Assembly: GCA_903875215.1 (NCBI GenBank)
Contig: CAIQVH010000016.1
Span: 310,001 to 374,000, forward strand
Source of the DNA: an uncultured Anaerolineae bacterium
GTDB taxonomy: Bacteria > Chloroflexota > Anaerolineae > Anaerolineales > Villigracilaceae
Length of the DNA: 64,000 nucleotides
Direction: 5' to 3'
Both the position numbers and the translations under genes were made by a program. Each line of letters opens with the position of its first letter. Positions within the stretch are counted from its first letter, which is position 1. The notes under the pieces were generated by a model, which did no database searches, was not told the DNA's origin, and worked only from the letters and a program-made list of their open reading frames with translations. Of the stretch, positions 46,680 through 61,554 are shown one piece after another.

Positions 46680-47501
46680 ATGGCACTCCGCGGAAACCTA
46701 CGCGATTTTACCGTTACGCAATTGTTAAATCTGATCAACCTGGCCCATAAAACAGGGACTCTGGTCATTGAAGGTCCTGGAGAAGCAGCCAGGGTGGCTT
46801 TTCGGCTTGGCAAACTGGCATATGCCCAGGTTGGCCAGGAAGATAACCGCTTGGCTTCGGTTCTACATCGTGCCAACAAGTTGACCACTGGCCAGCTGCG
46901 CGCCATTCAAACCCGCGCGATGCAGGTCAGCGACAAAGAGCTCGGTTTGTTGTTGATTAATGCCGGCTACCTGACCCAGGATGACATCTTAAATTCCCTG
47001 CAATCGTATTTTACGGATGTGGTCCGCCGGCTCTTTACCTGGGTGGAAGGTTCCTTTCGCTTCGAGAATGAACTGCTGCCACCGGAGGATCGCATCACCG
47101 TGCGACTGGACCTGGAGAATTTAATTATCGAAGGCGCCCGCCAGCTGCGGGAGTGGGAACAACTGCAGGATGAAATTCCCAGCCTCGAGATGGCACTCAA
47201 ATTTATTGAGCGGCCAGGAACCAATATCCAAAAAATGAATTTGAGCGTGGAAGAGTGGCGGGTGGTTTCTTTTATTAATCCGCGCAACACTATCTTGCAG
47301 ATTGCGGCGGCGGCCAAAATGAGCGATCTGGAAATTCGCCGCATTGTGTATGGTTTGCTGCAGGCTGGGCTGGTGGAAGTCATCCGCCCGGATGGCGGGT
47401 TGGCAACCGCTGAACGCGTCCGGCCGCAGGTCATCGTGCAGAACCGTGAAGAGCAAAAGTCGCTGGTGAATCGGTTGATCACCCGCATTCGTTCAATATA
47501 A
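46680..47501 (+). CDS. DUF4388 (PATAN-like) domain protein
   Basis: A 273-residue cytosolic protein. The N-terminal domain reads MALRGNLRDFTVTQLLNLIN and KTGTLVIEG with VAFRLGKLAYAQVG, matching DUF4388, which is frequent in bacterial signalling. Residues about 75-165 hold a helical hairpin unit (LLINAGYLTQDDILNSLQSY), and 190-250 a winged-helix-like region (ISPLEMALKFIERPG is followed by EIRRIVYGLLQAGLVEVIRP). It immediately precedes a Ras-like GTPase, as DUF4388 proteins often do, so it may act as a GTPase partner. That role is inferred. Confidence 0.82.
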   Translation: MALRGNLRDFTVTQLLNLINLAHKTGTLVIEGPGEAARVAFRLGKLAYAQVGQEDNRLASVLHRANKLTTGQLRAIQTRAMQVSDKELGLLLINAGYLTQDDILNSLQSYFTDVVRRLFTWVEGSFRFENELLPPEDRITVRLDLENLIIEGARQLREWEQLQDEIPSLEMALKFIERPGTNIQKMNLSVEEWRVVSFINPRNTILQIAAAAKMSDLEIRRIVYGLLQAGLVEVIRPDGGLATAERVRPQVIVQNREEQKSLVNRLITRIRSI

Positions 47502-47529: not shown

Positions 47530-48072
47530 ATGCAGACCGTTAAAATGGTGGTAACCGGCCCGTTCAGTGCAGGAAAAACCGAATTCATTCGCTCTGTCAG
47601 CGAAATCGACGTGGTCTCGACGGAAAGAAAAATTACAGCCAGCGGTGAGCGCGCCATTAAGAACGCCACCACGGTTGCCATGGATTTTGGTCGCATCACG
47701 GTGGATGAAGACCTGGTGTTGTATTTATTTGGCACGCCGGGTCAAAAACGGTTTGACTTCATGTGGGAGATTCTTTCAGAAGGGATGCTTGGATTCATCG
47801 TGATGGTGGACAGTTCCCGCCCGGAGACTTTCCGCGAAGCGCGTTCGATTCTTGAGACCTTCCGCGCTTATGCGCCAACCCCGTATGTGGTGGCGGCCAA
47901 TAAGCAGGATGTGACCGACGCCTGGGAGATCGAAGATATTCGTCATGCTTTGCGCCTGGATGGCAAGGTAAAGCTACTGCCCTGCGTTGCCAACGATAAA
48001 ACCACCGTCAAAAACATCCTGCTTGAACTGCTCTACAGCATTTTGGCCGAGATGGATGGCGGGGACAAATAA
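47530..48072 (+). CDS. Ras-like small GTPase (MglA/COG2229 type)
   Basis: A 180-residue GTPase. The P-loop is TGPFSAGKTEF, the switch I region has KNATTVAMDFGRI, switch II reads LFGTPGQKRFDFMW, and the base-specificity motif is NKQD. A Gln follows the G3 PG step, as in active Ras-type GTPases. Relatives act as polarity or signalling switches (MglA) or in conservon-type modules. It sits 28 nt after the DUF4388 gene and 17 nt before a hydrolase gene. No dedicated MglB/roadblock protein is present here. Confidence 0.9.
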   Translation: MQTVKMVVTGPFSAGKTEFIRSVSEIDVVSTERKITASGERAIKNATTVAMDFGRITVDEDLVLYLFGTPGQKRFDFMWEILSEGMLGFIVMVDSSRPETFREARSILETFRAYAPTPYVVAANKQDVTDAWEIEDIRHALRLDGKVKLLPCVANDKTTVKNILLELLYSILAEMDGGDK

Positions 48073-48089: not shown

Positions 48090-48887
48090 GTGTCATCCAT
48101 CACGACTGATCAAGGCATCGTACATTACGAAGTGTATGGGCGGGGGCGCCCGGTCATCCTTTTACACGGCTGGTTGGGCTCTTGGGGGCTTTGGCAGGAA
48201 ACCATGGCTTATCTTGGGCGCTATTACCGCACCTATGCGCTCGACTTTTGGGGATTTGGCGAATCGGGCAAAAAACGTGAAACCTATGCAGTGCAGGATT
48301 TTGTCAGCCTGGTGGATCAATTCATGGATCGCCTGGGCATTTATCAGGCGCCACTGGTGGGTCACAGTATGGGAGGCACGGTCAGCCTCTCGGTGGCCAT
48401 TCAATTCCCGGAGCGGGTCAAAAAAGTGGTGGTGATTGGTTCGCCCATTGTTGGTTCCTCGCTGGCTGTCCCGCTCAAGCTGGCTGGCTATCGCTCGATC
48501 GCCTTTATCCTGTTCAATATGATGTGGGCTTTTCGGGGCGGCATGAAGATTGCCTCGCCTTATATATGCTCGGACCCGCGCTTTCCAGCGATGATGGATA
48601 AGGATCTCTCGCGCACAACGGTAGAATCTTTCCTGCTCAGCATTGCCTCCCTGCGCCGCACCGACTTGCGCCCGGCGCTGGCCCAAGTGAAAGTGCCGGT
48701 TATGGGCATGTACGGTGACCGTGATAACATCGTCCATCCCAGGCAGTGGCAGCCGCTTTCGGCGGGCATCCCGGCGGCAAAAATTGTCCGCTGGGAGAAG
48801 GCGCAGCATTTTGTCATGCTGGATACGCCCCAGGATTTTATGGATAACCTGAAGAATTTCCTGGACGAGAAGGAGGATCCTGCCTGA
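48090..48887 (+). CDS. alpha/beta-fold hydrolase
   Basis: A 265-residue hydrolase. It has the HGWLGSWGLW oxyanion block, the nucleophile motif GHSMGG, MGMYGDRDNIV as the acid region and AQHFVMLDTP as the His region, so the triad is complete. The GTG start at 48090 is supported because the paralogue at 59944 aligns from its first residues (GIVHYEVxGRGRP). Substrate unknown (ester or lipid-like are possible). It overlaps the V4R gene by one base (TGATG). Confidence 0.86.
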   Translation: MSSITTDQGIVHYEVYGRGRPVILLHGWLGSWGLWQETMAYLGRYYRTYALDFWGFGESGKKRETYAVQDFVSLVDQFMDRLGIYQAPLVGHSMGGTVSLSVAIQFPERVKKVVVIGSPIVGSSLAVPLKLAGYRSIAFILFNMMWAFRGGMKIASPYICSDPRFPAMMDKDLSRTTVESFLLSIASLRRTDLRPALAQVKVPVMGMYGDRDNIVHPRQWQPLSAGIPAAKIVRWEKAQHFVMLDTPQDFMDNLKNFLDEKEDPA

Positions 48888-49504
48888 TGCAAACCTCCCG
48901 GAATCAATATCCCCAACCGATGGGCCGAATCATGCTCCAGGCGCTGGAAGAAATCCTGGGTAATGACGGAGCCCGGGCCATTCTCAACCTGGTTGATGGG
49001 TTTGATGTCGCCTTGTGCGATGCTCGCCATGAAGTGGGCATTTCTTTCGAATCCATCAGTCAGCTGCAGGATGCCCTGGAGAGGGAGTATGGCCTGCATG
49101 GTGGCCGTGGAATTGCGCTGCGGGTCGGGCGGGCCTGTTTTCAACAAGGTTTGCGCGAATTTGGCCCGCGCCATGGTCTGACCGATCTCACCTTTCGCCT
49201 GCTGCCTGCGCAATCCAAATTCCAGGCCGGCGCAGCAGCCCTGGCCGAGATCTTTAACCGGTACACCGATCAGCGTGTGCGCCTGGAAGACCAGGGCAAG
49301 ACTCTGCTCTGGCACATTGAACGTTGCCCTTTATGCTGGGAACGTCAGGCCGAAGCGCCGAGCTGCCAGATGGCGGTGGGCCTGTTGCAGGAAGCGCTGT
49401 ATTGGTTAAGCGGCGGCAAGTTTTTTCGGGTGGAAGAAATCAGTTGCCAGGCGTGCGGAGATGCGACCTGCACTATTGCGATTGATAAGACACCCATGGG
49501 GTGA
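48887..49504 (+). CDS. V4R (4-vinyl reductase) domain protein
   Basis: A 205-residue protein. Most of it forms a V4R domain, a small-molecule-binding module related to the ligand domain of XylR/DmpR and to chlorophyll-biosynthesis BchJ. Near the C-terminus are CPLCW and a final metal-like block EISCQACGDATCTIAI. The domain generally binds small hydrophobic ligands, so it may be the chemical input of the cluster. ATG overlaps the stop of the hydrolase. Confidence 0.82.
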   Translation: MQTSRNQYPQPMGRIMLQALEEILGNDGARAILNLVDGFDVALCDARHEVGISFESISQLQDALEREYGLHGGRGIALRVGRACFQQGLREFGPRHGLTDLTFRLLPAQSKFQAGAAALAEIFNRYTDQRVRLEDQGKTLLWHIERCPLCWERQAEAPSCQMAVGLLQEALYWLSGGKFFRVEEISCQACGDATCTIAIDKTPMG

Positions 49505-49509
49505 AACGC

Positions 49510-50790
49510 ATGTTCAAAATCATCTTGCAGGCTCCCAGGCGAATCCCGCCTTTTAATGAACCCGCACGGGAACTGCGCATCCAGAATATGCCGCTCTGGT
49601 TGTGGCAGCGCAATCTTCTTGCGCCATATGTCACTCGTGAACAGGAAATCCCCTCCAACGCGCGCCTGCCACAGATTCGCGAGCCGATGCTGGTCTATCG
49701 GGATAACCTGTTTTTTGACCGATTTTTCATCGAAGAGTTTCTGGATCTGGCGCAGCAACGGGGACGGCCGGTGCGGGCAGCTTTTTCGATCGATGACCCG
49801 GCTTTCCGGGAACATGCCCTGCCTCTTTCGGTCTCTTATACACCCGCGGGAAATCTTTATCTGGCAGATTTGTGGTATTACCCCAAGGGCCCGGAAGTGG
49901 ATGTTGACCCGCTGGTGATTAACATGCAATCCAGCGAAGTCGGCTATTATCATGTGCCCTCTTACATGGCCGGAACGCATGGTGATCTGGTGTACCAGGT
50001 GCCGCGCCGGGCCATGATGGCGATTGACTGTTGGACTCACGTCTTCATAGCTGACAGCGTTTTTGGCCTGTTTGCGCGCGCGTTGCGCTTTGAGACGCGC
50101 CTGAATCACGACTTGGCGTTCAAGCTGAATATCCTGGCATCCGCCATTTACGAAGGCCGCCAATTGCTGGAGTGTTCCAAACTGGTGAGGATTGGTAAAG
50201 GTTGTACGATTGATCCGACGGCTGTCATCCATGGCCCAACCACCATTGGCGACCGGGTGACGATCAATGCTGGGGCGGTGATTGAAAACTGCATCATTGG
50301 CGATGATGTTAACATCTCTCAGGGCTGCCAGCTAATGCTCTCGGTGGTTGGCAATGGGACTTTTCTGCCTTTCCGGGCAGCCCTGTTTATGACCACGATC
50401 ATGGATAATTCCATGGTTGCGCAGAATACCTGCCTGCAAATGTGCGTCGTCGGCCGGAACACCTTCATCGGCGCTGGATCGACGTTTACCGATTACAACC
50501 TGATCCCTGCGCCGATTCGGGCATTGGATGGGCATGATGAACTTCGGGTGACCAATCGCCCGGTGTTGGGTGGGGCGGTTGGCCATAATTGCCGCATTGG
50601 GGCCGGGATGATTGTTTATCCGGCGCGCACGATCGAGTCGGATGTTGTGCTGGCAGCTTCGCGTGAGCGGCGGGTGATTGATCGGGATATCAAGTACGAG
50701 GACAGCGATCACCACAAGATGAAGAATGCCAGTGCCCACAAGCAGGTTTATCCGCGCCGGGGCGGGGAAAAGGATCTCGAAGCCTGGTAA
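49510..50790 (+). CDS. left-handed beta-helix protein, possible nucleotidyl/acyltransferase-like
   Basis: A 426-residue protein. The last 210 residues (about 220-400) have hexapeptide repeats of left-handed beta-helix type (GKGCTIDPTAVIHGPTTIGD, VTINAGAVIENCIIGDDVN, and NCRIGAGMIVYPARTIESDV). The first 200 residues resemble no family I can name. There is no clear nucleotide-sugar signature (no GxG-x-R start). ATG 49510 follows GGGGTG; a GTG at 49501 would overlap the upstream stop (GTGA) and is an alternative. A role in surface sugar modification is possible but not shown. Confidence 0.7.
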   Translation: MFKIILQAPRRIPPFNEPARELRIQNMPLWLWQRNLLAPYVTREQEIPSNARLPQIREPMLVYRDNLFFDRFFIEEFLDLAQQRGRPVRAAFSIDDPAFREHALPLSVSYTPAGNLYLADLWYYPKGPEVDVDPLVINMQSSEVGYYHVPSYMAGTHGDLVYQVPRRAMMAIDCWTHVFIADSVFGLFARALRFETRLNHDLAFKLNILASAIYEGRQLLECSKLVRIGKGCTIDPTAVIHGPTTIGDRVTINAGAVIENCIIGDDVNISQGCQLMLSVVGNGTFLPFRAALFMTTIMDNSMVAQNTCLQMCVVGRNTFIGAGSTFTDYNLIPAPIRALDGHDELRVTNRPVLGGAVGHNCRIGAGMIVYPARTIESDVVLAASRERRVIDRDIKYEDSDHHKMKNASAHKQVYPRRGGEKDLEAW

Positions 50791-51197: not shown

Positions 51198-52103
51198 ATG
51201 GGAAAAGCCCGCCTTTTGATTGTTGAAGATGATGTTGATATTTCCACCATGCTGAAAATTTACTTCAGCGGGTTGGGCTTTGAGGTGGATACTGCCATGC
51301 GTGGTTCGGATGCGTTGGAAAAAACGCGCATGGCACTGCCGCATTTGATTGTGCTGGATATCATGCTGCCTGATATTGATGGTTATGAAGTCTGCCGAAA
51401 TTTGCGCACCAATACGCGCACCAGTCATATTCCGATTATTTTTCTGACGCAGAAGGATGAACGCAGTGACCGTTTGCAGGGTCTGGAGCTGGGTGCGGAT
51501 GATTATATTACCAAGCCATTTGATATCGAAGAGTTGAAGCTGCGTGTCCAAGGCGCCATCCGGCGTTCGGAGCGGGAGAGTTTGACAGATCCACGCTCGG
51601 GCCTGCCTGCCGGACGCCTGATTGAAGAGCAGCTGCGCCGCATTATTCGTGAGAAAAGCTGGGCTTTTCTGGACATTCGCATTAACCATTTTGATCCTTT
51701 TAAGGATGTTTATGGGTTTGTGGCTGGCGATGATGTGCTGCGTTTTGCGGGGATGTTGATTGGCGAAGTGTTGGATGAACGCGGCACCCCGGGCGATTTT
51801 GTTGGCCATGCCGGTGGTGATAATTTTATTGTGATTACGACAGAAGGCGCGGCGGCTGGAATCCGCGTTAGTTTGAAAGAGCGCTTTGCGGAGGAAGTGC
51901 AATCTCACTACAACTTTATTGACCGTCAGCAGGGATTTATTGTTGCCCCTGGCGCTGATGGACAGAATGACCAAGCCCCGTTAATGACCCTGGCGGTTGG
52001 GTTAGTTTCGCCTGCACAGCATTCTTTTGCCGATATTCGCGAGATTACCGAACTGGCCGCAGAAGCGCGCCGACAGGATGCGGGAGCTGCTGCCAGGGCC
52101 TGA
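51198..52103 (+). CDS. receiver plus degenerate GGDEF domain response regulator
   Basis: A 301-residue protein. The REC domain (1-120) has the acidic pair LLIVEDDVD, the phosphate acceptor Asp in IVLDIMLPDIDG and Lys in ADDYITKPFD. The second domain (about 130-290) has GGDEF-like architecture (LTDPRSGLPAGRLIEEQLRR; then RINHFDPFKDVYG), but the active-site sequence is HAGGDNFIVI where GGDEF or GGEEF is needed, so it is probably not an active cyclase. It may bind nucleotide or act as a protein-interaction domain. It lies 18 nt upstream of the giant kinase, whose target it could be. Confidence 0.85.
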   Translation: MGKARLLIVEDDVDISTMLKIYFSGLGFEVDTAMRGSDALEKTRMALPHLIVLDIMLPDIDGYEVCRNLRTNTRTSHIPIIFLTQKDERSDRLQGLELGADDYITKPFDIEELKLRVQGAIRRSERESLTDPRSGLPAGRLIEEQLRRIIREKSWAFLDIRINHFDPFKDVYGFVAGDDVLRFAGMLIGEVLDERGTPGDFVGHAGGDNFIVITTEGAAAGIRVSLKERFAEEVQSHYNFIDRQQGFIVAPGADGQNDQAPLMTLAVGLVSPAQHSFADIREITELAAEARRQDAGAAARA

Positions 52104-52121: not shown

Positions 52122-55100
52122 ATGCTGCAAGGACCGGTATTCCTGGGCATCGGCGTTCTTATCTCTGGACTATTTATTTTTTCGATAGTCTGGTTGGTTT
52201 TGCGTGTGTTGCCTCGTATCCGTCCCGCACTGCCGGATGCGGTTCAAGCGGGTGGGGGACCGGGGGATGCTCCTTGTGAGGCGGTGCTGGTGGTTGAGGT
52301 GGGCGGACGGTTTCGCCACATCAATGCCCTGGCGCGGGAGTGGTTTGAACTGCTCGAAGGGGAAATTCCCAATATAGAACGACTGGCTCGCCGTACGCGC
52401 CCCGGCGCAAGTTTTTTGGAGATATGCGCCGCTGAAGGTCAGGCGCATTTTTCCATTAATGGGCGGCTGGTTGATGCGGTTTCTTACCGGGTGCCGGGGG
52501 AAGTTCTTTCGATGTTGGTGGTCATCCGGGCTGTTGAGAGTCCGTTGGATGCTGATCAGGCCCAGCATGGGGAGGATCTTCCGGGGGCAACGCTTAAGAC
52601 GGTGACCGAGTTTGGCCAGGCCATCGCGACCAGTTTGAGTCTTGAAACGACGGTCCACTCCATCCTGGCGAATGTTGAACGGCTGGTGGTCTGTGATTTT
52701 CTGGAAGTCAAAGTTTGGGATGAGAGTACCAGGGCGTTGATTCCGTACCGGCTGAGTGATGTCACCGGAGCAGCGCGCCTGCTGCAGCGGGAAAAAGTCA
52801 GCCGGTTCGGTGAATATGCTGGTTACCTGGTCGCGCAGCGGCAGGAATTGTTGATTCCGGACACGCGTGCTTTTTCGGATGTGAAATATGACCCCGTTGA
52901 GAGCCGCCTGCCTCCGATGGGTTCCTACATTGGTCTGCCCTTGCTGGCTTATGGTCTGCTGGTTGGCACCCTGGAAATGGGGGTTGTGCAGGCGAATAGT
53001 TTTTCGCGCGAGGAAGTCAACCTGCTGAAATTGGTGACGCCCCAGGCGGCGGTGGCGCTGCGAAATGCTTTCCTGTATGAAAAACAACAGCGTTGGAATA
53101 CCCAGCTTGTGGGGCTCACAAACCTTTCACATGCGGTGGGGCCATTGCGTGACTTGCGGGAGTTATTCGCGCGGCTGGTCGATGGGCTGGCGCCCTATTT
53201 TAACGTTGAAATTCTGGGTTTTTTACTCTACGATGAACAGCGCCGGGTGCTGGAAGGGCAATTGCCTTTTTATGGGCTGCCCAATGATTTTGTGCAGATT
53301 TACCGGACGACGGTGCGCGCAAACAGCCCGGCGGACGTGCGCATCCATGGCCAGGCGGTGATCACGACACTGGATGCACGCCAGGATGATGTCTGGGCGG
53401 AGTTGGGGCTGCAGGATCTGGCGCAGGCGGCTTCCATGCGCGATACGGCGCTGGTCCCGCTGATTTCGGCTGGCTGTTTCCTTGGCTTCCTCCAGCTTTC
53501 GAATCACAAGCAGGGCAATCAGCCGCTCTCGCTGGATGAATTGCGCCTGTTAAACATGGTTGCCAACCAGGTGGCCGCTCTGCTCGATAATACCCTGCTC
53601 GATCAGCAGGTGCGCCAGCGCAACCAGCGCGTCGAGGTGTTGCGACGGATTTCCAGCCTGGTGAGTTCTTCGGCGAGCCTGGATGAGATCATGGGCTTTG
53701 CCTTGCAGGAATTGGCACAGCTGCTCCAGGCTGAGGCTGGGGCGGTTTTCCTGATGGATGAAGGCGAAGGTGTTTTGCACGCGCACAAAGCCTCGATTTT
53801 TGGCGTCCCGGAAGAATGGCGTGAACCACTCTCGCAGGTGATCATCAAGCCGTCCATTTATCGCAAGACGGTGATGGGCAGTCAGCGTCCGTTCCTTTCA
53901 GGCAATCTTTCGGGCGACCGGCGGATATTGCCGCCCTACCAGCCGCTGGTGCGGCACCTGGGCTTCCAGTCGGCGTTGTGCGTGCCGCTGGTGGTTGGCG
54001 GGCGCGGAATCGGTGAACTGCTGCTGGGAGGGCGGCAGGCGGACCTGTTCACCCTGCCGGATACACAGACCGCCTCCACTGTGGCCAGTCAGCTGGCGGT
54101 GGCGATTGAGAATGCGCGTCATGTGGGTGAGACGGAAGCTGTGCTGCGCCGCAGGGCTGGCTACCTGCCGGATCTGGCGCGTTATGTACGGGAAGTCAGC
54201 TCCAGCTCAAACCCGAAAGACTTGCTGCGCATTGTCTTTGAAGAAAGCCTGCGTGTGGCTGGCGTTGAGTGCGGCGCCGCCTGTTTATATGACTCCGGTG
54301 AGAGCGGGCTGGCAAATCGATCGATCATACTCCGGCTCGGCCATCCAGCCGGTGAGACGCTCAGCGGCGGTCAGACCTCCGTTCTCGAACTGGGCATCCC
54401 GGTTGTGATGGATGCGCCTGGTGCAATTCCGCATGCCGGGATTGCGGCGGTGTTGCTGACGCCAATCAGTCATCAGGAGCGGGTACTTGGTTTCATCGAA
54501 TTGCATGCGCCACAGGCCGGTTATTTTGATGAAGCCCGCGTGGAAATGCTCAGAATTATGGGCATCCAGGCTGCAATTGCCTTGCAGATGGCGTTGGCTG
54601 CCCATGAACAAACCGGACGGGTGGAACAGTATCGCCGCCGATCGGATACCTTCAAACAATTATTCGACATTCTGCAAGGGCTGCGGGTGGAAGATGCGCT
54701 GGAGAACGCCCTGGAACTGGTCGCCCAGGGGATTCGACAGGCGACACCCTTTCGCGCCGTCCTGGTCAGCCTGCATGATCCTGCGACCGGGATGTTAACC
54801 CGCATCGCTGGAACCGGGATTGACGCTGCAGCTTTTGTCCAGTTGCAGGAGCATCAACAATCGTGGATGAGCGTGGCCGAGTTGATGAAGCCTGAATTCG
54901 AAATTGGCAACCTGTATTTTATCCCGGCTGATAAGGCGCCAGTCATCCCTGCTGATGTGCAGACGCTCACCGTTGTTCAGGATGCGAATCCGGCCCCAAA
55001 TGCCTGGCAGCCGGACGACATGCTCATCCTGCCGGTCTACGACAACGCTGACCGGCCGCTCGGCCTGATCAGTGTCGACGCGCCGAGCGACGGGCGCCGC

Positions 55101-58100
55101 CCGGATGGGGTGACGGTCGAAATCCTGGAAGTGTTCGCCGCCCAGGCCGCTCTGACGATCACCAGCGCCCGGAGCAGGCTGTCTTTCCAGCAGCGCATCA
55201 CCGAATTGGGCCGGGAGATTGACCGTCAGAAGAATCTGGTCAGTTTCAGCCAACGCAGCCTGCCCAATTTGCTGCAAAAGGATCTGGATCACACCGTCAC
55301 CGTCTCCAACTTGAACCAGCGGGCGCGCCACATCCGGGCCGGGCTGCAGCTGACGGAGGCCATCAGCCGACAGTTTGATGCCTCGGCGGCTTTGTTGACT
55401 CTTGGCCAGCAGGTGCTGACCAGCTTTGATATGTCCATCTCCCTTGTCGCACAGGATACGGCCGATGGACCGCGCATTGTCCACACGATTGGCAATCTGC
55501 CTCGCGATACCAACCCGGAGGCTTTGTTCGGCCAGCGCAATCCGTTGCGCAGCTGTTTGCAAACCGGCGAAACGATCCTTTCAATTGATCTGGACGAAGA
55601 CGAGACCTGGCATGATACGCCCTTCCTGACCGCGCTGCGTGCCAAATCATTCCTGGCCATCCCTGTGGTGATCAATCAGAAGACCATCGCGGCGGTTTTG
55701 GCCACCGATTCTGAAACCATGCCGGCTATGTCGCCTGAAGACCGGCAGGTGTATTTTCAGATCAGCCGCCAGGTTTCGATCATTTTACAGAATATCAGCC
55801 TGCTGAATGAGACCCGACAGCGTTTGCAGGAAGTGAATTTGCTGCTCGATTTCAGCCGCCAATTGAGCGGGTTGAGTCCAAAGGAAATTCTCGAATCGCT
55901 TTTGCAGAGCGCTTTACGGGTGGTGTCTCCGGCGCATGCCGGTGTGGTGATGCAATGGGATGCACGGGCGGAGGAACTGATCCCGGTGGCAGCTTTGAAT
56001 TATGTGGATGACGAGGGCGTCCTGCGCATCACATACCAGCTTAACGAGGGCTTGCCCGGGCGCGTTTTTGCTGAAAAATCGCCCAGGCGGGTGGATGAAA
56101 TCAATTTTGCGCTCGATTACAATCTCCCGGCGGAGAATTTGCTCAAGTACCGGAAAGCCACCGGGGGCCGGGTACCCGTCTCCAGCCTGCTGGTTCCCAT
56201 TCAGGCCGGGTTGCATAACATGGGCGTGCTGGTGCTGGATAATTTCAACACATCGGCGGCCTTTCGCCCGGATGATGAAGCCCTGCTGCTGTCGCTGACT
56301 CAACAGGTTGCGCTCGCGCTCGAGAACGTGCGCCTGGTGCAGGCCACGCAGGAACGCACCGGTCAATTGCAGGCGTTGAATGCCGTTGCGGCCACCCTGA
56401 CTTCCAGTTTACAGCGCAAAGAACTGGTCAGTTCCCTGCTTGATCGCATGGGATCGGTCATCCCCTATGATACGGCCATCCTGTGGCTGCGCAAGGCAGA
56501 GAAGATGGTCGTTGCCGAAGCGCGCGGCTTTGGCGACAGCGAAGAACGCAAAGGCCTGCAGGTGGACATTGAGGACAGTCTGCTGCTGAATGAGATGATT
56601 CGCACCGGGGAGGCGATCGCCGTTGGAGATGTGCGCGCGGATGCGCGTTTCTCGACCCTGGTTGAGAAGCCCTACCTGTCCTGGTTGGGCGTCCCCCTGA
56701 TCGCCAAGGGCCAGGTGATTGGCGTGATCGCCGCCGAAAAACTGGATCCGCACTTTTACAACCAAGAAATCGTTCAGTTGGCCACGACCTTCACCAGCCA
56801 GGCCGCCGTAGCACTGGATAATGCCAGCCTGTTCGAAGAATCCGTCCGGCGCGCCGCTGAGTTGGATGAACGCTCCAAGCGCCTGGCCTTGCTTAACCTG
56901 TTCTCGGCGGAACTGGCTGGTTCGTTGAATGCCGAGCAGGTGCTCCGGTTAACAGCCAATCAGTTGTTGGTGGCCTTGCAAGCCGAGCGCTGTTTGATTA
57001 TTTCGTTGGAAGAAAAAGGCCAGGCTGTCCTGCTTACCGTTCTGCCCGACGAAACCGGACGCCCGACCATGTACCGCGGCTTGCCGGATGTGCCGCTCCT
57101 GGCCCATTTGCGAGAGTCACTCACTGTTTACACCACCGACGATATGCGCACAGATCCCAAACTGGCGGCGCTGCGTGATGTGCTTGAAGAGGCTGTTTCG
57201 TTGATGATTTTGCCTATCTCTGACGGCAGCCACGTTTATGCCCTGGTTTTGCAGAACAACCTCCCCGGCCGCTTTATTGCCACCGAAATTGAACTGGCCC
57301 GTACAATCGGTAACCAGTCCGCCATCGCCTTGAAGAATGCGGAACTTTACCAGTCCACGCTGGCCACCGCGGAACGTCTGGCAATCCTGAACCAGGTTTC
57401 ATTCGATATTGGCGCCAGTTTGGATCTTGAAGATATTTACCGCGCGGTGCATGGCGCCGCCTCCCGGCTGATGCCAGTGGATGCTTTTATTGTTGCGCTG
57501 CGCGACGAGGCCCTCGACGAAGTGGATGGAGTCTATATCGTCGATATGGGACAACGCATCAGTGGGGTGCGCCTGCCAAATGGGCAGGGACTGACCGGTC
57601 AGGTGATTACCAACGGCCAGCCGATTCTCACTCTCCAATCCCGCGAAGCCGAATCGCGCGGCGGTGTGACGATTGGCGAGAAGGGCACACCGCATTCCAT
57701 CCTGGTGGTGCCGATGCTTTCCGGCGGCAAGGTGATTGGTGCGCTTTCGGCTCAAAGCTATCAGTTCAATGCCTACACCGAGAACGACCAACAGATCTTG
57801 AGCACGCTCGCCAACCAGGCCACCATCGCCATCGAGAATGCCCGCCTGCTTGGCCAGACGCAGAAGCTGGCCGCCACGCTCGAACAGCGCGTCGTCGATC
57901 GTACGGCGGAACTGGAACGCGAACAGCACAATACCGAAACCTTGCTGCGCATTCTGACTGAAGTTTCCTCCAGCCTGGACCTGGATCGCGCGTTAAGCCG
58001 CACCCTCTCCCTCTTGAACGAGGCGATTGGCGCGGAACAGGGCACGATCATGCTCCTGCATCCCGAAGACAACATGCTCCATTATCGGGCTGGGTACGGC

Positions 58101-59558
58101 TATGTCACCCAGGATCCGCAGACCGGCAAACAGACAAACTCTTTCAATCTCAAGATTGGCGAAGGCCTGGCCGGCTGGGTGGTCAAGCACCATCAGCCGG
58201 TGCTGGTGGATGACCTGTATCTCGACCCGCGCTGGGTGGTTTCGCAGACATCCCAGAATCACCGCAGCGCACTGGTTGCGCCATTGGTGGTGGGTGAGGA
58301 CGTGATCGGGGCTATCATGGTCTTCCATCGCCGGATCGGGTTCTTTAACGAAGATTCGCTTGAGATGGTGCGTGCGATCGGTTCGCAGGTGGCGATTGCC
58401 ATCAACAATGCCCAACTATATGAGCTGATTCGCGATCAGGCCGAGCGCCTGGGGGCGATGCTGCGCCAGCAGCAGATGGAAGCCAGCCGCCAGACTGCCA
58501 TTCTCGAAGCGGTGGCCGACGGCGTGCTCGTTACCGATCCGGCCAATACCATCTCGTTTGTGAACGTCTCGGCAGAAAGCATTCTCTCCCTTTCGGCGGC
58601 CCAACTGGTTGGGAAGCCGGTGGAAAACGTTGCCGGCTTGTTTGGGAAAACTACCCAGACCTGGGTGCATACCGTCAAAGAGTGGTCGCACAATCCCGCC
58701 GGGCATCACGGAGGCGAGACATACGCCGAGCAGATCAGCCTGGAAAATGGGCAGGTGGTGCTCGTTCACCTGGCCCCGGTCATCTGGCGGAATGAATTTC
58801 TGGGAACCGTCTCCATATTCCGTGACATCACGCATGAAGTTGAAGTTGACCGGCTGAAATCAGAATTTGTGGCCACCGTCAGCCACGAATTGCGCACGCC
58901 GATGACCTCCATCCGCGGCTACGTGGATGTCCTCTTGATGGGCGCGGCCGGAGCGCTGACAGAGAATCAGTCCCGCTTTTTGGGCATCGTCAAGAACAAT
59001 ACCGAGCGCTTGAACATCCTGGTCAATGATCTTCTGGATGTTTCGCGCATCGAAGCAGGGCGCGTTTTCCTGGCAATTCAACCAGTGGATTTACAAGAAG
59101 TTGCCGGCGAAATTGTGGCAGACGCATTGCGCCGTTCGCATGAAGAACACAAACCGATGCAGATTTCTCTTTCTGTGACCGAGAGCTTACCGCGGGCGCT
59201 GGCCGACCCCGAGCGCATCCGGCAAGTCATTGACAATTTGATGGATAACGCCTATAACTACACCCCGGCGGATGGCAAAATTGAAATTCGCCTGCACAAA
59301 TCCGATGGGCTGGTGCAGGTGGATGTCAAAGACACTGGGATCGGCATCCCCGTTGGATTGCACGAACGCGTTTTTGACCGGTTCTTCCGTGGCGAAGACC
59401 CGCTGGTGCTTGCCACTCCGGGTACCGGGCTGGGCCTGCCCATCGTCCGGCAATTGGTGGAAATGCACCATGGAAAGATCTGGATGACCAGCACTGGCGT
59501 GGCGGGCGAAGGCAGCACCTTCTCGTTCACCCTGCCTGCCTATGAATCTGAGGAGTAA
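52122..59558 (+). CDS. giant multi-GAF sensor histidine kinase
   Basis: A 2478-residue kinase. One N-terminal helix (about residues 5-28) is followed by a PAS-like domain (about 45-135) and about eleven consecutive GAF-type domains, which I place near residues 173-320, 340-500, 520-670, 697-830, 857-1020, 1083-1230, 1253-1410, 1430-1575, 1603-1750, 1767-1915 and 1953-2100. Most end in the recurrent QAAxALxNAxLY helix. A PAS domain (about 2123-2236; ILEAVADGVLVTDPANTISF), HisKA (VSHELRTPMTSIRG, His2255) and HATPase (DNLMDNAYNYTP, DTGIGIP, GTGLGLPIVRQL) complete it. The kinase core looks intact. GAF ligands are unknown; only one or two may be true sensors and the rest signal relays. SD GGAGAG. 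Confidence 0.92.
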   Translation: MLQGPVFLGIGVLISGLFIFSIVWLVLRVLPRIRPALPDAVQAGGGPGDAPCEAVLVVEVGGRFRHINALAREWFELLEGEIPNIERLARRTRPGASFLEICAAEGQAHFSINGRLVDAVSYRVPGEVLSMLVVIRAVESPLDADQAQHGEDLPGATLKTVTEFGQAIATSLSLETTVHSILANVERLVVCDFLEVKVWDESTRALIPYRLSDVTGAARLLQREKVSRFGEYAGYLVAQRQELLIPDTRAFSDVKYDPVESRLPPMGSYIGLPLLAYGLLVGTLEMGVVQANSFSREEVNLLKLVTPQAAVALRNAFLYEKQQRWNTQLVGLTNLSHAVGPLRDLRELFARLVDGLAPYFNVEILGFLLYDEQRRVLEGQLPFYGLPNDFVQIYRTTVRANSPADVRIHGQAVITTLDARQDDVWAELGLQDLAQAASMRDTALVPLISAGCFLGFLQLSNHKQGNQPLSLDELRLLNMVANQVAALLDNTLLDQQVRQRNQRVEVLRRISSLVSSSASLDEIMGFALQELAQLLQAEAGAVFLMDEGEGVLHAHKASIFGVPEEWREPLSQVIIKPSIYRKTVMGSQRPFLSGNLSGDRRILPPYQPLVRHLGFQSALCVPLVVGGRGIGELLLGGRQADLFTLPDTQTASTVASQLAVAIENARHVGETEAVLRRRAGYLPDLARYVREVSSSSNPKDLLRIVFEESLRVAGVECGAACLYDSGESGLANRSIILRLGHPAGETLSGGQTSVLELGIPVVMDAPGAIPHAGIAAVLLTPISHQERVLGFIELHAPQAGYFDEARVEMLRIMGIQAAIALQMALAAHEQTGRVEQYRRRSDTFKQLFDILQGLRVEDALENALELVAQGIRQATPFRAVLVSLHDPATGMLTRIAGTGIDAAAFVQLQEHQQSWMSVAELMKPEFEIGNLYFIPADKAPVIPADVQTLTVVQDANPAPNAWQPDDMLILPVYDNADRPLGLISVDAPSDGRRPDGVTVEILEVFAAQAALTITSARSRLSFQQRITELGREIDRQKNLVSFSQRSLPNLLQKDLDHTVTVSNLNQRARHIRAGLQLTEAISRQFDASAALLTLGQQVLTSFDMSISLVAQDTADGPRIVHTIGNLPRDTNPEALFGQRNPLRSCLQTGETILSIDLDEDETWHDTPFLTALRAKSFLAIPVVINQKTIAAVLATDSETMPAMSPEDRQVYFQISRQVSIILQNISLLNETRQRLQEVNLLLDFSRQLSGLSPKEILESLLQSALRVVSPAHAGVVMQWDARAEELIPVAALNYVDDEGVLRITYQLNEGLPGRVFAEKSPRRVDEINFALDYNLPAENLLKYRKATGGRVPVSSLLVPIQAGLHNMGVLVLDNFNTSAAFRPDDEALLLSLTQQVALALENVRLVQATQERTGQLQALNAVAATLTSSLQRKELVSSLLDRMGSVIPYDTAILWLRKAEKMVVAEARGFGDSEERKGLQVDIEDSLLLNEMIRTGEAIAVGDVRADARFSTLVEKPYLSWLGVPLIAKGQVIGVIAAEKLDPHFYNQEIVQLATTFTSQAAVALDNASLFEESVRRAAELDERSKRLALLNLFSAELAGSLNAEQVLRLTANQLLVALQAERCLIISLEEKGQAVLLTVLPDETGRPTMYRGLPDVPLLAHLRESLTVYTTDDMRTDPKLAALRDVLEEAVSLMILPISDGSHVYALVLQNNLPGRFIATEIELARTIGNQSAIALKNAELYQSTLATAERLAILNQVSFDIGASLDLEDIYRAVHGAASRLMPVDAFIVALRDEALDEVDGVYIVDMGQRISGVRLPNGQGLTGQVITNGQPILTLQSREAESRGGVTIGEKGTPHSILVVPMLSGGKVIGALSAQSYQFNAYTENDQQILSTLANQATIAIENARLLGQTQKLAATLEQRVVDRTAELEREQHNTETLLRILTEVSSSLDLDRALSRTLSLLNEAIGAEQGTIMLLHPEDNMLHYRAGYGYVTQDPQTGKQTNSFNLKIGEGLAGWVVKHHQPVLVDDLYLDPRWVVSQTSQNHRSALVAPLVVGEDVIGAIMVFHRRIGFFNEDSLEMVRAIGSQVAIAINNAQLYELIRDQAERLGAMLRQQQMEASRQTAILEAVADGVLVTDPANTISFVNVSAESILSLSAAQLVGKPVENVAGLFGKTTQTWVHTVKEWSHNPAGHHGGETYAEQISLENGQVVLVHLAPVIWRNEFLGTVSIFRDITHEVEVDRLKSEFVATVSHELRTPMTSIRGYVDVLLMGAAGALTENQSRFLGIVKNNTERLNILVNDLLDVSRIEAGRVFLAIQPVDLQEVAGEIVADALRRSHEEHKPMQISLSVTESLPRALADPERIRQVIDNLMDNAYNYTPADGKIEIRLHKSDGLVQVDVKDTGIGIPVGLHERVFDRFFRGEDPLVLATPGTGLGLPIVRQLVEMHHGKIWMTSTGVAGEGSTFSFTLPAYESEE

Positions 59559-59560
59559 GT

Positions 59561-59935
59561 ATGGCCAAGATCGTCATCGCAGAAGATGAGCCCGATATCC
59601 GCGATTTGATCGCCTTCACCCTGCGCTTTGCCGGGCATGAAGTCATCACGGGCAGCAACGGCGAGGAAGGCTATCATCTGGCCCGGCAGGAACACCCCGA
59701 CCTGGTGATGTTGGATGTGCGCATGCCCCGCATGACCGGCTACGAAGCCTGCCAGCGCATCAAGGCCGAGCCCGGGCTGGGCACCACCCCGGTCGTTTTC
59801 CTTTCTGCCAAGGGGCAGGAAAACGAAATCGAGCAGGGCCTGGCTGCCGGAGCGGAAGAATACCTGCTCAAACCGTTTGCTCCCGATCAGCTTGTTGAGA
59901 GAGTTAACGCCATTTTGCGGAAATTCGGCAAATAA
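59561..59935 (+). CDS. single-domain response regulator (CheY-like)
   Basis: A 124-residue REC protein. It has acidic residues in VIAEDEPDIRD, the acceptor Asp in VMLDVRMPRM, the Thr/Ser site VVFLSAKGQE and Lys in YLLKPFAP. It starts 2 nt after the kinase stop with GAGGAG inside the kinase end, so it is very likely the kinase's partner. With no output domain it must act by binding another protein. Confidence 0.9.
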   Translation: MAKIVIAEDEPDIRDLIAFTLRFAGHEVITGSNGEEGYHLARQEHPDLVMLDVRMPRMTGYEACQRIKAEPGLGTTPVVFLSAKGQENEIEQGLAAGAEEYLLKPFAPDQLVERVNAILRKFGK

Positions 59936-59943
59936 CGGAGTGT

Positions 59944-60729
59944 ATGAGCGCGATTTTATTGGAAGGCGGCATTGTTCACTATGAAGTGATAGGGCGCGGA
60001 CGTCCCATCATCTTCCTGCACGGCTGGGTGGGCTCCTGGCGTTATTGGATTCCTGCCATGCAGGCCGCCTCGACTGTTTTCCGCGCGTATGCGCTGGATT
60101 TGTGGGGCTTCGGCGATAGCGCCCACGACCCAGAACGTTATCCTGTTACCCAGCAAATTACCCTGCTGGAAAATTTCCTCGGTGAAATGGGCATTGGAAA
60201 GGTCGCCCTGATTGGGCACGGGCTGGGAGGCCTGATCGGCCTGCATTTCGCCCACCGCAATCCGCAGATGGTGGACCGTATCCTGTCCGTTAACGTCCCG
60301 CTCGATCTCAGCCTTGTGAATGCCCGCCTGCGGGGCAGCCTTCCATCCGACCTGGCGGATTGGCTTCTGGCAAAAGATCCCTCCGCCGACCCGGCCCGCA
60401 TGGACGCTCACAAGGCCGATTCGCAAGCTGTCTCCGCTTCCTTCGCCAATTCCGAGTCCTTCAGCCTGGCCAACCGCCTCGGCACACTCACCAATCCCTG
60501 TCTGCTGGTCTACGGGCAGAATGACCCGGCCATTACCGCGCCCGTCTATACCCCGGAAAATTCACCCTACAATCTTCATCTGATCAGCCTGGAACAAACC
60601 GGACACTTTCCCATGCTCGAGGATACCGCCCGCTTCAACCGCCTGCTGACCGATTTCCTGGCCCTCGATTCGGGCGTTTCGCCGCGCGAACTGCAGCTAA
60701 AGGAAGAATGGAAGCGCCGGGTGCGCTGA
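59944..60729 (+). CDS. alpha/beta-hydrolase-fold protein lacking the nucleophile Ser
   Basis: A 261-residue paralogue of the hydrolase at 48090 (shared GIVHYEV-GRGRP, then LHGWxGSW). The nucleophile elbow reads IGHGLGG where the paralogue has VGHSMGG, so the catalytic Ser is Gly (codon GGG at 60220-60222). The acid (GQNDPAI) and His (TGHFPMLED) regions remain. It is therefore likely non-catalytic, perhaps a ligand-binding or regulatory protein. It follows the receiver by 8 nt with SD GGAG. Confidence 0.85.
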   Translation: MSAILLEGGIVHYEVIGRGRPIIFLHGWVGSWRYWIPAMQAASTVFRAYALDLWGFGDSAHDPERYPVTQQITLLENFLGEMGIGKVALIGHGLGGLIGLHFAHRNPQMVDRILSVNVPLDLSLVNARLRGSLPSDLADWLLAKDPSADPARMDAHKADSQAVSASFANSESFSLANRLGTLTNPCLLVYGQNDPAITAPVYTPENSPYNLHLISLEQTGHFPMLEDTARFNRLLTDFLALDSGVSPRELQLKEEWKRRVR

Positions 60730-60761
60730 CCTGCCTGCGCCAGGTGTACAATCATCAAAAC

Positions 60762-60850
60762 TCAACGGGGAGCCTGCTCAACCAGGCTGAGAGGAGGGTA
60801 TTTTGCCCTCGACCCGCATAACCTGATCCGGATAATGCCGGCGGAGGGAA
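60762..60850 (+). promoter_or_regulatory. TPP riboswitch (THI element)
   Basis: The segment contains the hallmark thiamine-pyrophosphate aptamer blocks: GGGGAGCC, GGCTGAGA, CGACCC, then ACCTGATCCGGATAATGCCG and GGAGGGAA, in canonical order. It precedes thiamine pyrophosphokinase and a thiamine-type ABC importer. TACAAT at 60747-60752 is a likely -10. Confidence 0.95.
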
Positions 60851-60864
60851 TGGCTTGTTATTCC

Positions 60865-60891
60865 AGCAACCTCCCCCGGCGGGAGGTTGCT
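60865..60891 (+). promoter_or_regulatory. Shine-Dalgarno-sequestering hairpin of the riboswitch
   Basis: AGCAACCTCCC (60865-60875) and GGGAGGTTGCT (60881-60891) form an 11-bp perfect hairpin. The 3' arm holds the SD GGGAGG of the kinase gene. GGAGGG at the aptamer 3' end (60843-60848) is also complementary to CCTCCC, which gives a natural alternative pairing. There is no long T-run, so translational control fits better than termination. Confidence 0.8.
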
Positions 60892-60894
60892 TTC

Positions 60895-61554
60895 ATGTCC
60901 CGAGCGCTGATCTTTATTAATGGCCCCCTGCATGATCCAGAACTGGTGCGCGCCATGGCGCGGCCCGATGATCGCATTTTTGCCGCTGATGGCGGCGCCC
61001 GTCATGCTCTGGCCCTGGGGTTGACCCCCATCGCCATTTTGGGCGATCTGGATTCGCTCAGCCCGGAAGAAGTCAAAACCTACCTAGGGATGGGCATCCA
61101 TGTTTTGCGATACCCGCCTGTCAAGGACGAAACCGACCTGGAACTGGCGCTGAACCACGTCATTCGTGGCGGGCATCATCCCATCCTCATTATCGGCGGC
61201 TATGGCGGGCGGCTCGACCAATCCCTCGCCAACCTGGCGCTGCTCGCCGCCCCGGAAGCCATCGCCGCCGGCGCCCGTTTTGAGGACGGCCTGACCGAAG
61301 CCTTCTTCATCACCTCGCAGGCTGTACTGACAGGCGCTCCGGGCGATCTGGTGTCGCTCCTGCCCTGGGGAGTGCCGGCTGAGGGCATCCATACCGAGGG
61401 GCTTTCGTATCCCCTCGGCCATGAGACTCTCCAGCCCTTCCGTACGCGCGGCATCAGCAACCAGATGCTCGGCGAAACGGCCAAAATCAGTTTGAAGCAG
61501 GGCTTATTGCTCTGCGTTCATCAGCGCACTGTTGAAATAGGATCATTTTCATGA
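60895..61554 (+). CDS. thiN: thiamine pyrophosphokinase
   Basis: A 219-residue enzyme converting thiamine to thiamine diphosphate with ATP. Motifs are DGGARHALALGLTPIAILGDLDSL, the acidic DETDLELAL block, and GGYGGRLDQSLANLALL, all typical of TPK. The ATG at 60895 follows GGGAGG at 8 nt; the earlier ATG at 60835 lies inside the riboswitch aptamer. Its stop overlaps the next gene's start (ATGA at 61551-61554), so it should be translationally coupled. Confidence 0.94.
   Translation: MSRALIFINGPLHDPELVRAMARPDDRIFAADGGARHALALGLTPIAILGDLDSLSPEEVKTYLGMGIHVLRYPPVKDETDLELALNHVIRGGHHPILIIGGYGGRLDQSLANLALLAAPEAIAAGARFEDGLTEAFFITSQAVLTGAPGDLVSLLPWGVPAEGIHTEGLSYPLGHETLQPFRTRGISNQMLGETAKISLKQGLLLCVHQRTVEIGSFS

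Follow-up and report, generated by a model that had tools for sequence, protein, structure and literature searches.

An alpha/beta-hydrolase-fold protein with a variable nucleophile site as a candidate signalling subunit in Chloroflexota

Protein A of an uncultured Anaerolineae bacterium is a conserved alpha/beta-hydrolase-fold protein that lacks a serine at its nucleophile elbow and occupies a fixed place in a signalling operon. Judged from the sequences, the best reading of A is a bacterial hydrolase-derived signalling subunit with a tail of its own, as a candidate function. Specifically we propose, at about an even chance, that A is a non-hydrolytic signalling subunit which has kept a putative ligand-sensing pocket and carries a candidate docking tail. 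All coordinates refer to the window, i.e. the whole stretch of 64,000 nucleotides that was analysed (positions 310,001 to 374,000 of contig CAIQVH010000016.1).

Protein A and its sister hydrolase

The open reading frame of A (59944..60729, +) codes for 261 residues and starts with ATG, with GGAG as a ribosome-binding site just 5' of it. It begins 8 bases 3' of the stop codon of a single-domain, CheY-like receiver gene (59561..59935, +; Pfam Response_reg), in keeping with the tight spacing described in the first-pass annotation. Pfam Abhydrolase_1 and Abhydrolase_6 score over the cut-off in A. The AlphaFold model has a mean pLDDT of 92.3 and is confident except for the C-terminal tail, and structural matches in the PDB extend across residues 1-245 with Z values up to 28.7. 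Because the gene ends ahead of a TPP riboswitch and a thiamine pyrophosphokinase-like gene, the signalling cluster appears to end with A. The riboswitch (Rfam RF00059, 71.8 bits; 60756-60866, +) is flanked by A and the thiN-like gene (60835-61554). It overlaps the start listed for the latter, which suggests that this gene in fact begins more 3'. A thiN-like gene was found 3' of A in 32 of 51 loci.

The nucleophile elbow of A reads GHGLGG (residues 91-96; 60214..60231, +). Gly93 (codon 60220-60222, +) stands there instead of a nucleophile for hydrolysis of the usual kind, i.e. Ser, Asp or Cys, and the alignment shows that this position varies across the family. At the aligned place the sister hydrolase B (265 residues, GTG start; 48090..48887, +) has GHSMGG with the serine intact. 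Both the replacement of the serine and the paralogy of A and B (32% identity, E 4e-40) had been claimed in the first-pass annotation and were borne out by the open reading frames and the alignment. Its statement that the histidine and the acid remain is correct, too: alignment with B and relatives identified Asp194 (60523..60525, +) and His221 (60604..60606, +) as these members of the former triad. Serine was kept in all 39 tail-less relatives, B included.

The nucleophile site and its surroundings

The first survey covered 101 genomes, the window's own and 100 relatives, in which orthologues of A at 36-74% identity were common. In the first 74 orthologues aligned, all from the window's order, residue 93 was Gly in 68, Asp in 3, Ala in 2 and Ser in a single case. 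A genome-collection scan and a phylum search widened the sample to named Anaerolineae, Levilinea saccharolytica and the Gly93 member Anaerolinea thermolimosa among them, and to another class, presumably Chloroflexia. At this intermediate stage the picture was similar with 143 of 144 tail-bearing sequences non-Ser and two changes on the tree, as if a single loss of serine lay at the root of the tail-bearing family. This view was overturned by wider sampling of the window's class. Among 40 orthologues in other orders of that class, residue 93 was Ser in 14, Gly in 12, Ala in 12 and Thr in 2; the early near-absence of serine is explained by the sampling of close relatives. Serine orthologues that share the gene order of A include those of G586, G689, G632, G653, G696, G509 and G534. 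The first-pass annotation had taken serine in orthologues as the sign of an isolated mutant. Such orthologues exist in other orders, yet with 73 of 74 orthologues non-Ser in the window's order an isolated mutation of the strain is ruled out. In total, the 184 tail-bearing sequences had Gly in 126, Asp in 20, Ser in 15, Ala in 15, Asn in 4 and Thr in 4. Class-wide, residue 93 is variable and not uniformly lost.

Contig NZ_LGCM01000042.1 of Levilinea saccharolytica carries two A loci (L159 and L164), which face in opposite directions at a distance of about 34 kb and are equally identical to the query. Either a large segment was duplicated in inverted orientation or the pair results from the assembly.

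A tree was built without column 93 and without the tail. Because it is a quick tree over sampled sequences its counts are approximate, and the tree for residue changes leaves out L082 and L083, two long-branch rows without the His-Asp dyad. The tail-bearing family fell on one side of a branch with a weak support of 70. Inside this family the state Ser versus non-Ser changed 10 times, 4-5 of which are forced by starred branches. Residue 93 changed about 18 times on the tail-bearing tree, while H26, W28, H92 and G95 did not change at all and D194 and H221 changed once each. The median site had 27 changes; position 93 is thus unexceptional overall and stands out only against its catalytic neighbours. 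From this comparison we concluded that the nucleophile site was released and its surroundings were held.

A variable serine site may also be expected of a decaying copy of B, which lost the serine by drift and has no special role, and A is indeed missing from two genomes (G061 and G075) that retain the kinase and the degenerate-GGDEF receiver described below. However, the reading frames are uninterrupted, many relatives share 60-74% identity with A, a ribosome-binding site is present, the position in the operon is the same in two classes and several residues hardly vary, all of which points to purifying selection on A. Contradicted by conservation throughout the phylum, decay is highly improbable.

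Of the 20 members with Asp93, 10 had Asn or Ser as residue 194, while this was seen in 0 of 124 others, a difference whose significance is inflated by shared descent. The data suggest that one carboxylate beside His221 may have been kept and swapped between positions 93 and 194. Position 117 at the end of beta6 is Asn in protein A of the window and seldom acidic in relatives. As it is Asn in 20 of 20 Asp93 members and Asp194 is gone in half of them, a place for these members in the haloalkane dehalogenase or epoxide hydrolase type, with its Asp nucleophile and an acid at the end of beta6 or after beta7, is not supported.

Alternatively, A may still be an enzyme, with the His221-Asp194 dyad as general base and no serine nucleophile, e.g. 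in proton transfer, lyase or oxygenase-like chemistry. Catalysis by the dyad independent of serine would explain the free choice of Ser, Ala or Gly at position 93, and His and Asp are much more constant than this residue. The presence of serine in 15 of 184 sequences together with a mostly kept dyad would suit catalysis, too. A direct precedent is the alpha/beta-hydrolase-fold dioxygenase AqdC with a natural Ala in the elbow (PMC10548524). In the cofactor-free dioxygenases HOD and AqdC the elbow residue is Ser and Ala, respectively, at an unchanged reaction and with the His base kept (PMC10548524). A resembles them in the fold, the variable elbow residue and the retained His; on the other hand, the acid of HOD is Asp126 compared with Asp194 in A, and HOD and AqdC act in the breakdown of N-heteroaromatic compounds outside signalling operons. 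Asp126 of HOD sits at the beta6 position, to which position 117 of A would correspond by this placement. Several observations speak against an enzyme. Asp194 is replaced by Asn or Ser in the 10 Asp93 members mentioned above. His221 is lost in four sequences, some of which retain the locus; L082 and L083 among them have no Asp either, yet kept the tail and the operon place. Moreover, Anaerolineae are mostly anaerobic and oxygen chemistry seems unlikely there, and catalysis alone leaves the tail and the operon ties unexplained. We regard a serine-independent enzyme as rather unlikely.

The C-terminal tail and the conserved neighbours

The defining mark of the A family is a C-terminal tail with the motif LKEEWKRRVR, which B does not have; in the window it comprises residues 250-261, LQLKEEWKRRVR (60691..60726, +). 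W256 was kept in 184 of 184 family members. On the tail-bearing tree neither W256 nor R258 changed and R259 changed three times; the R-R pair departs in L273, L293 and L300. Mean pairwise identity in the tail was 0.82 and rose to 0.91 within residues 253-259; residues 1-120 reached 0.60 and the cap 0.33. The sets were picked by W-x-R-R, a choice that favours the tail. W256 was present also in 40 of 40 class members retrieved by a whole-protein profile. The pLDDT of the tail in the AlphaFold model of A was 50-57. High conservation combined with low model confidence suggests that the tail may be a docking segment. The tail, the most telling feature of A, escaped the first-pass annotation; it points to a protein partner at least as much as to a ligand.

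Tail conservation in excess of that of the body would equally suit a pure scaffold or adaptor, in which the fold would serve only to carry the tail and nothing would bind in the pocket. The loss of His221 and of the acid in some members is in line with such a role, and so is the precedent of the NDRG proteins, which have a blocked pocket and no enzymatic activity (PMC7022630). Yet a scaffold would have no need of the pocket residues H26, W28, H92, G95, D194 and H221, which are near-constant, although some of them may serve the fold. We consider a pure scaffold unlikely.

Upstream of A the cluster contains genes for a DUF4388 protein (46680..47501, +; Pfam DUF4388), a small GTPase-like protein (47530..48072, +; Pfam ATP_bind_1/Ras), B, a V4R-domain protein (48887..49504, +; Pfam V4R), a left-handed beta-helix (hexapeptide) protein (49501..50790, +; Pfam Hexapep), a receiver with a degenerate GGDEF domain (REC-GGDEF; 51198..52103, +; Pfam) and a giant histidine kinase of 2478 residues with about 10 GAF domains, PAS, HisKA and HATPase (52122..59558, +; Pfam). 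The single-domain receiver gene starts 2 bases after the end of the kinase gene. All of 51 well-covered loci had the kinase upstream of A, and 48 of them had the single-domain receiver immediately 5' of A. Across classes the gene order is beta-helix protein, REC-GGDEF, kinase, (receiver), A; tabulated by hand, the order beta-helix protein, REC-GGDEF, (kinase), A was seen in 38 of 38 class genomes. A survey of 400 genomes of the phylum found the beta-helix protein in 69 of 69 genomes with A and in one without A (G110). In 298 genomes of the class A/B-type hydrolases, beta-helix protein and REC-GGDEF occurred together in 97 and were all missing in 186, a count which pools A and B. Order and co-occurrence thus tie A to the beta-helix protein, to the degenerate-GGDEF receiver and usually to the giant GAF-array kinase. 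Conserved neighbours of this kind are linkage, not contact. A literature search at the level of titles and abstracts found none that describes the gene cluster of A.

REC-GGDEF is about 80% identical across family f1. Its GGDEF signature reads GGDNF, with the Glu replaced, in most of 69 homologues, so that the module contains a second component of enzymatic origin without an intact signature. In two loci of the window's genus, L253 (G005) and L254 (G003), A is devoid of Ser, acid and His with the tail kept; the kinase there is shortened to about 800 residues and V4R was not found.

The single-domain receiver is unlikely to be the sole partner of A. Four loci of the other class (L240, L241, L243 and L244) showed neither a separate receiver gene between those of the kinase and A nor a receiver fused to the C-terminus of the kinase; the kinase gene is followed directly by that of A. 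In G614 and G669 A is located 3' of REC-GGDEF with a gap of about 50-110 bases, estimated from coordinates. This is too small for a kinase gene, which weakens the case for the kinase as the only partner. The corresponding gap in G626 was about 460 bases, likewise by estimate from coordinates; in this arrangement the three genomes differ from the others. The data suggest that REC-GGDEF, and not the kinase, may be the constant partner of A.

Known systems and the proposed role of A

The first-pass annotation had suggested a dead-enzyme sensor in a signalling cluster after the example of KAI2/D14-like and Rsb-type proteins. The idea itself finds partial support, because a conserved Ser-less paralogue with retained His and acid is fixed in a signalling operon, which makes signalling without ester hydrolysis the best reading. 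The chosen precedent is imprecise. The Ser-His-Asp triad is present in KAI2 and RsbQ (PMC3548789), thus neither is an example of a dead enzyme. A has in common with KAI2, D14 and the bacterial RsbQ that an alpha/beta-hydrolase fold is found in signalling. It differs from KAI2 and RsbQ by Gly93, which replaces the serine and breaks the triad, and by its tail.

NDRG proteins are non-enzymatic proteins of the alpha/beta-hydrolase fold with signalling roles, e.g. human NDRG2 and NDRG3 and plant NDL; in NDRG3 all triad residues are replaced and the pocket is blocked (PMC7022630). A is like them in having the fold without a working nucleophile and unlike them in that Asp194 and His221 are mostly kept and that the gene is part of a bacterial two-component operon. 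A had no match to Pfam Ndr at E 0.001; by the fold search a distant kinship may still exist. The N-acyl homoserine lactonase AidH is among the closest structural matches of A (Z 28.7, rmsd 2.4-2.5, about 19% identity), with many other hydrolases being nearly equal. Wild-type AidH differs from A as an active enzyme with a Glu as the acid, without a signalling operon and without a tail. Its mutant S102G, however, is inactive and was crystallised with intact substrate, the lactone (PMC3532132), and an exchange of Ser for Gly can thus spare binding. By analogy, NDRG and AidH S102G appear to fit A better than KAI2, D14 and RsbQ.

The non-hydrolytic signalling subunit we favour would work as follows. 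Built on an alpha/beta-hydrolase, A would have given up nucleophilic ester hydrolysis in the window's lineage. A small molecule would bind in the retained pocket and be left uncleaved. The basic, Trp-containing tail would dock onto a partner of the module, and the ligand state of A could then be relayed to the kinase/receiver pathway.

A more elaborate version is speculative and, in our estimate, quite improbable. The transferase-like beta-helix protein would be the writer, B the eraser and A the reader of a small acyl or ester signal, with A reporting to the giant kinase and the pseudo-GGDEF receiver in Chloroflexota. G061 and G075 of family f2 keep the kinase, the receivers including REC-GGDEF, and V4R, while B, beta-helix protein and A are all missing; this joint loss favours the idea. 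The incomplete genome G007, on the other hand, retains B although beta-helix protein, kinase and A are missing, which disfavours it.

Taken together A looks like a retired enzyme reused in signalling, possibly as a small-molecule sensor. Signalling roles of dead alpha/beta-hydrolases are known mostly in eukaryotes. The A family is bacterial and widespread in Chloroflexota, with a nucleophile site that was released repeatedly and with pocket and candidate docking tail fixed, and A sits beside B, a matched sister that looks active. Gly, Ala, Ser, Thr, Asp and Asn at one and the same site provide a natural series for the question of when a hydrolase turns into a signalling part. Finally, the cluster of A suggests a sensory module that has apparently not been described before, in bacteria that have received little study.
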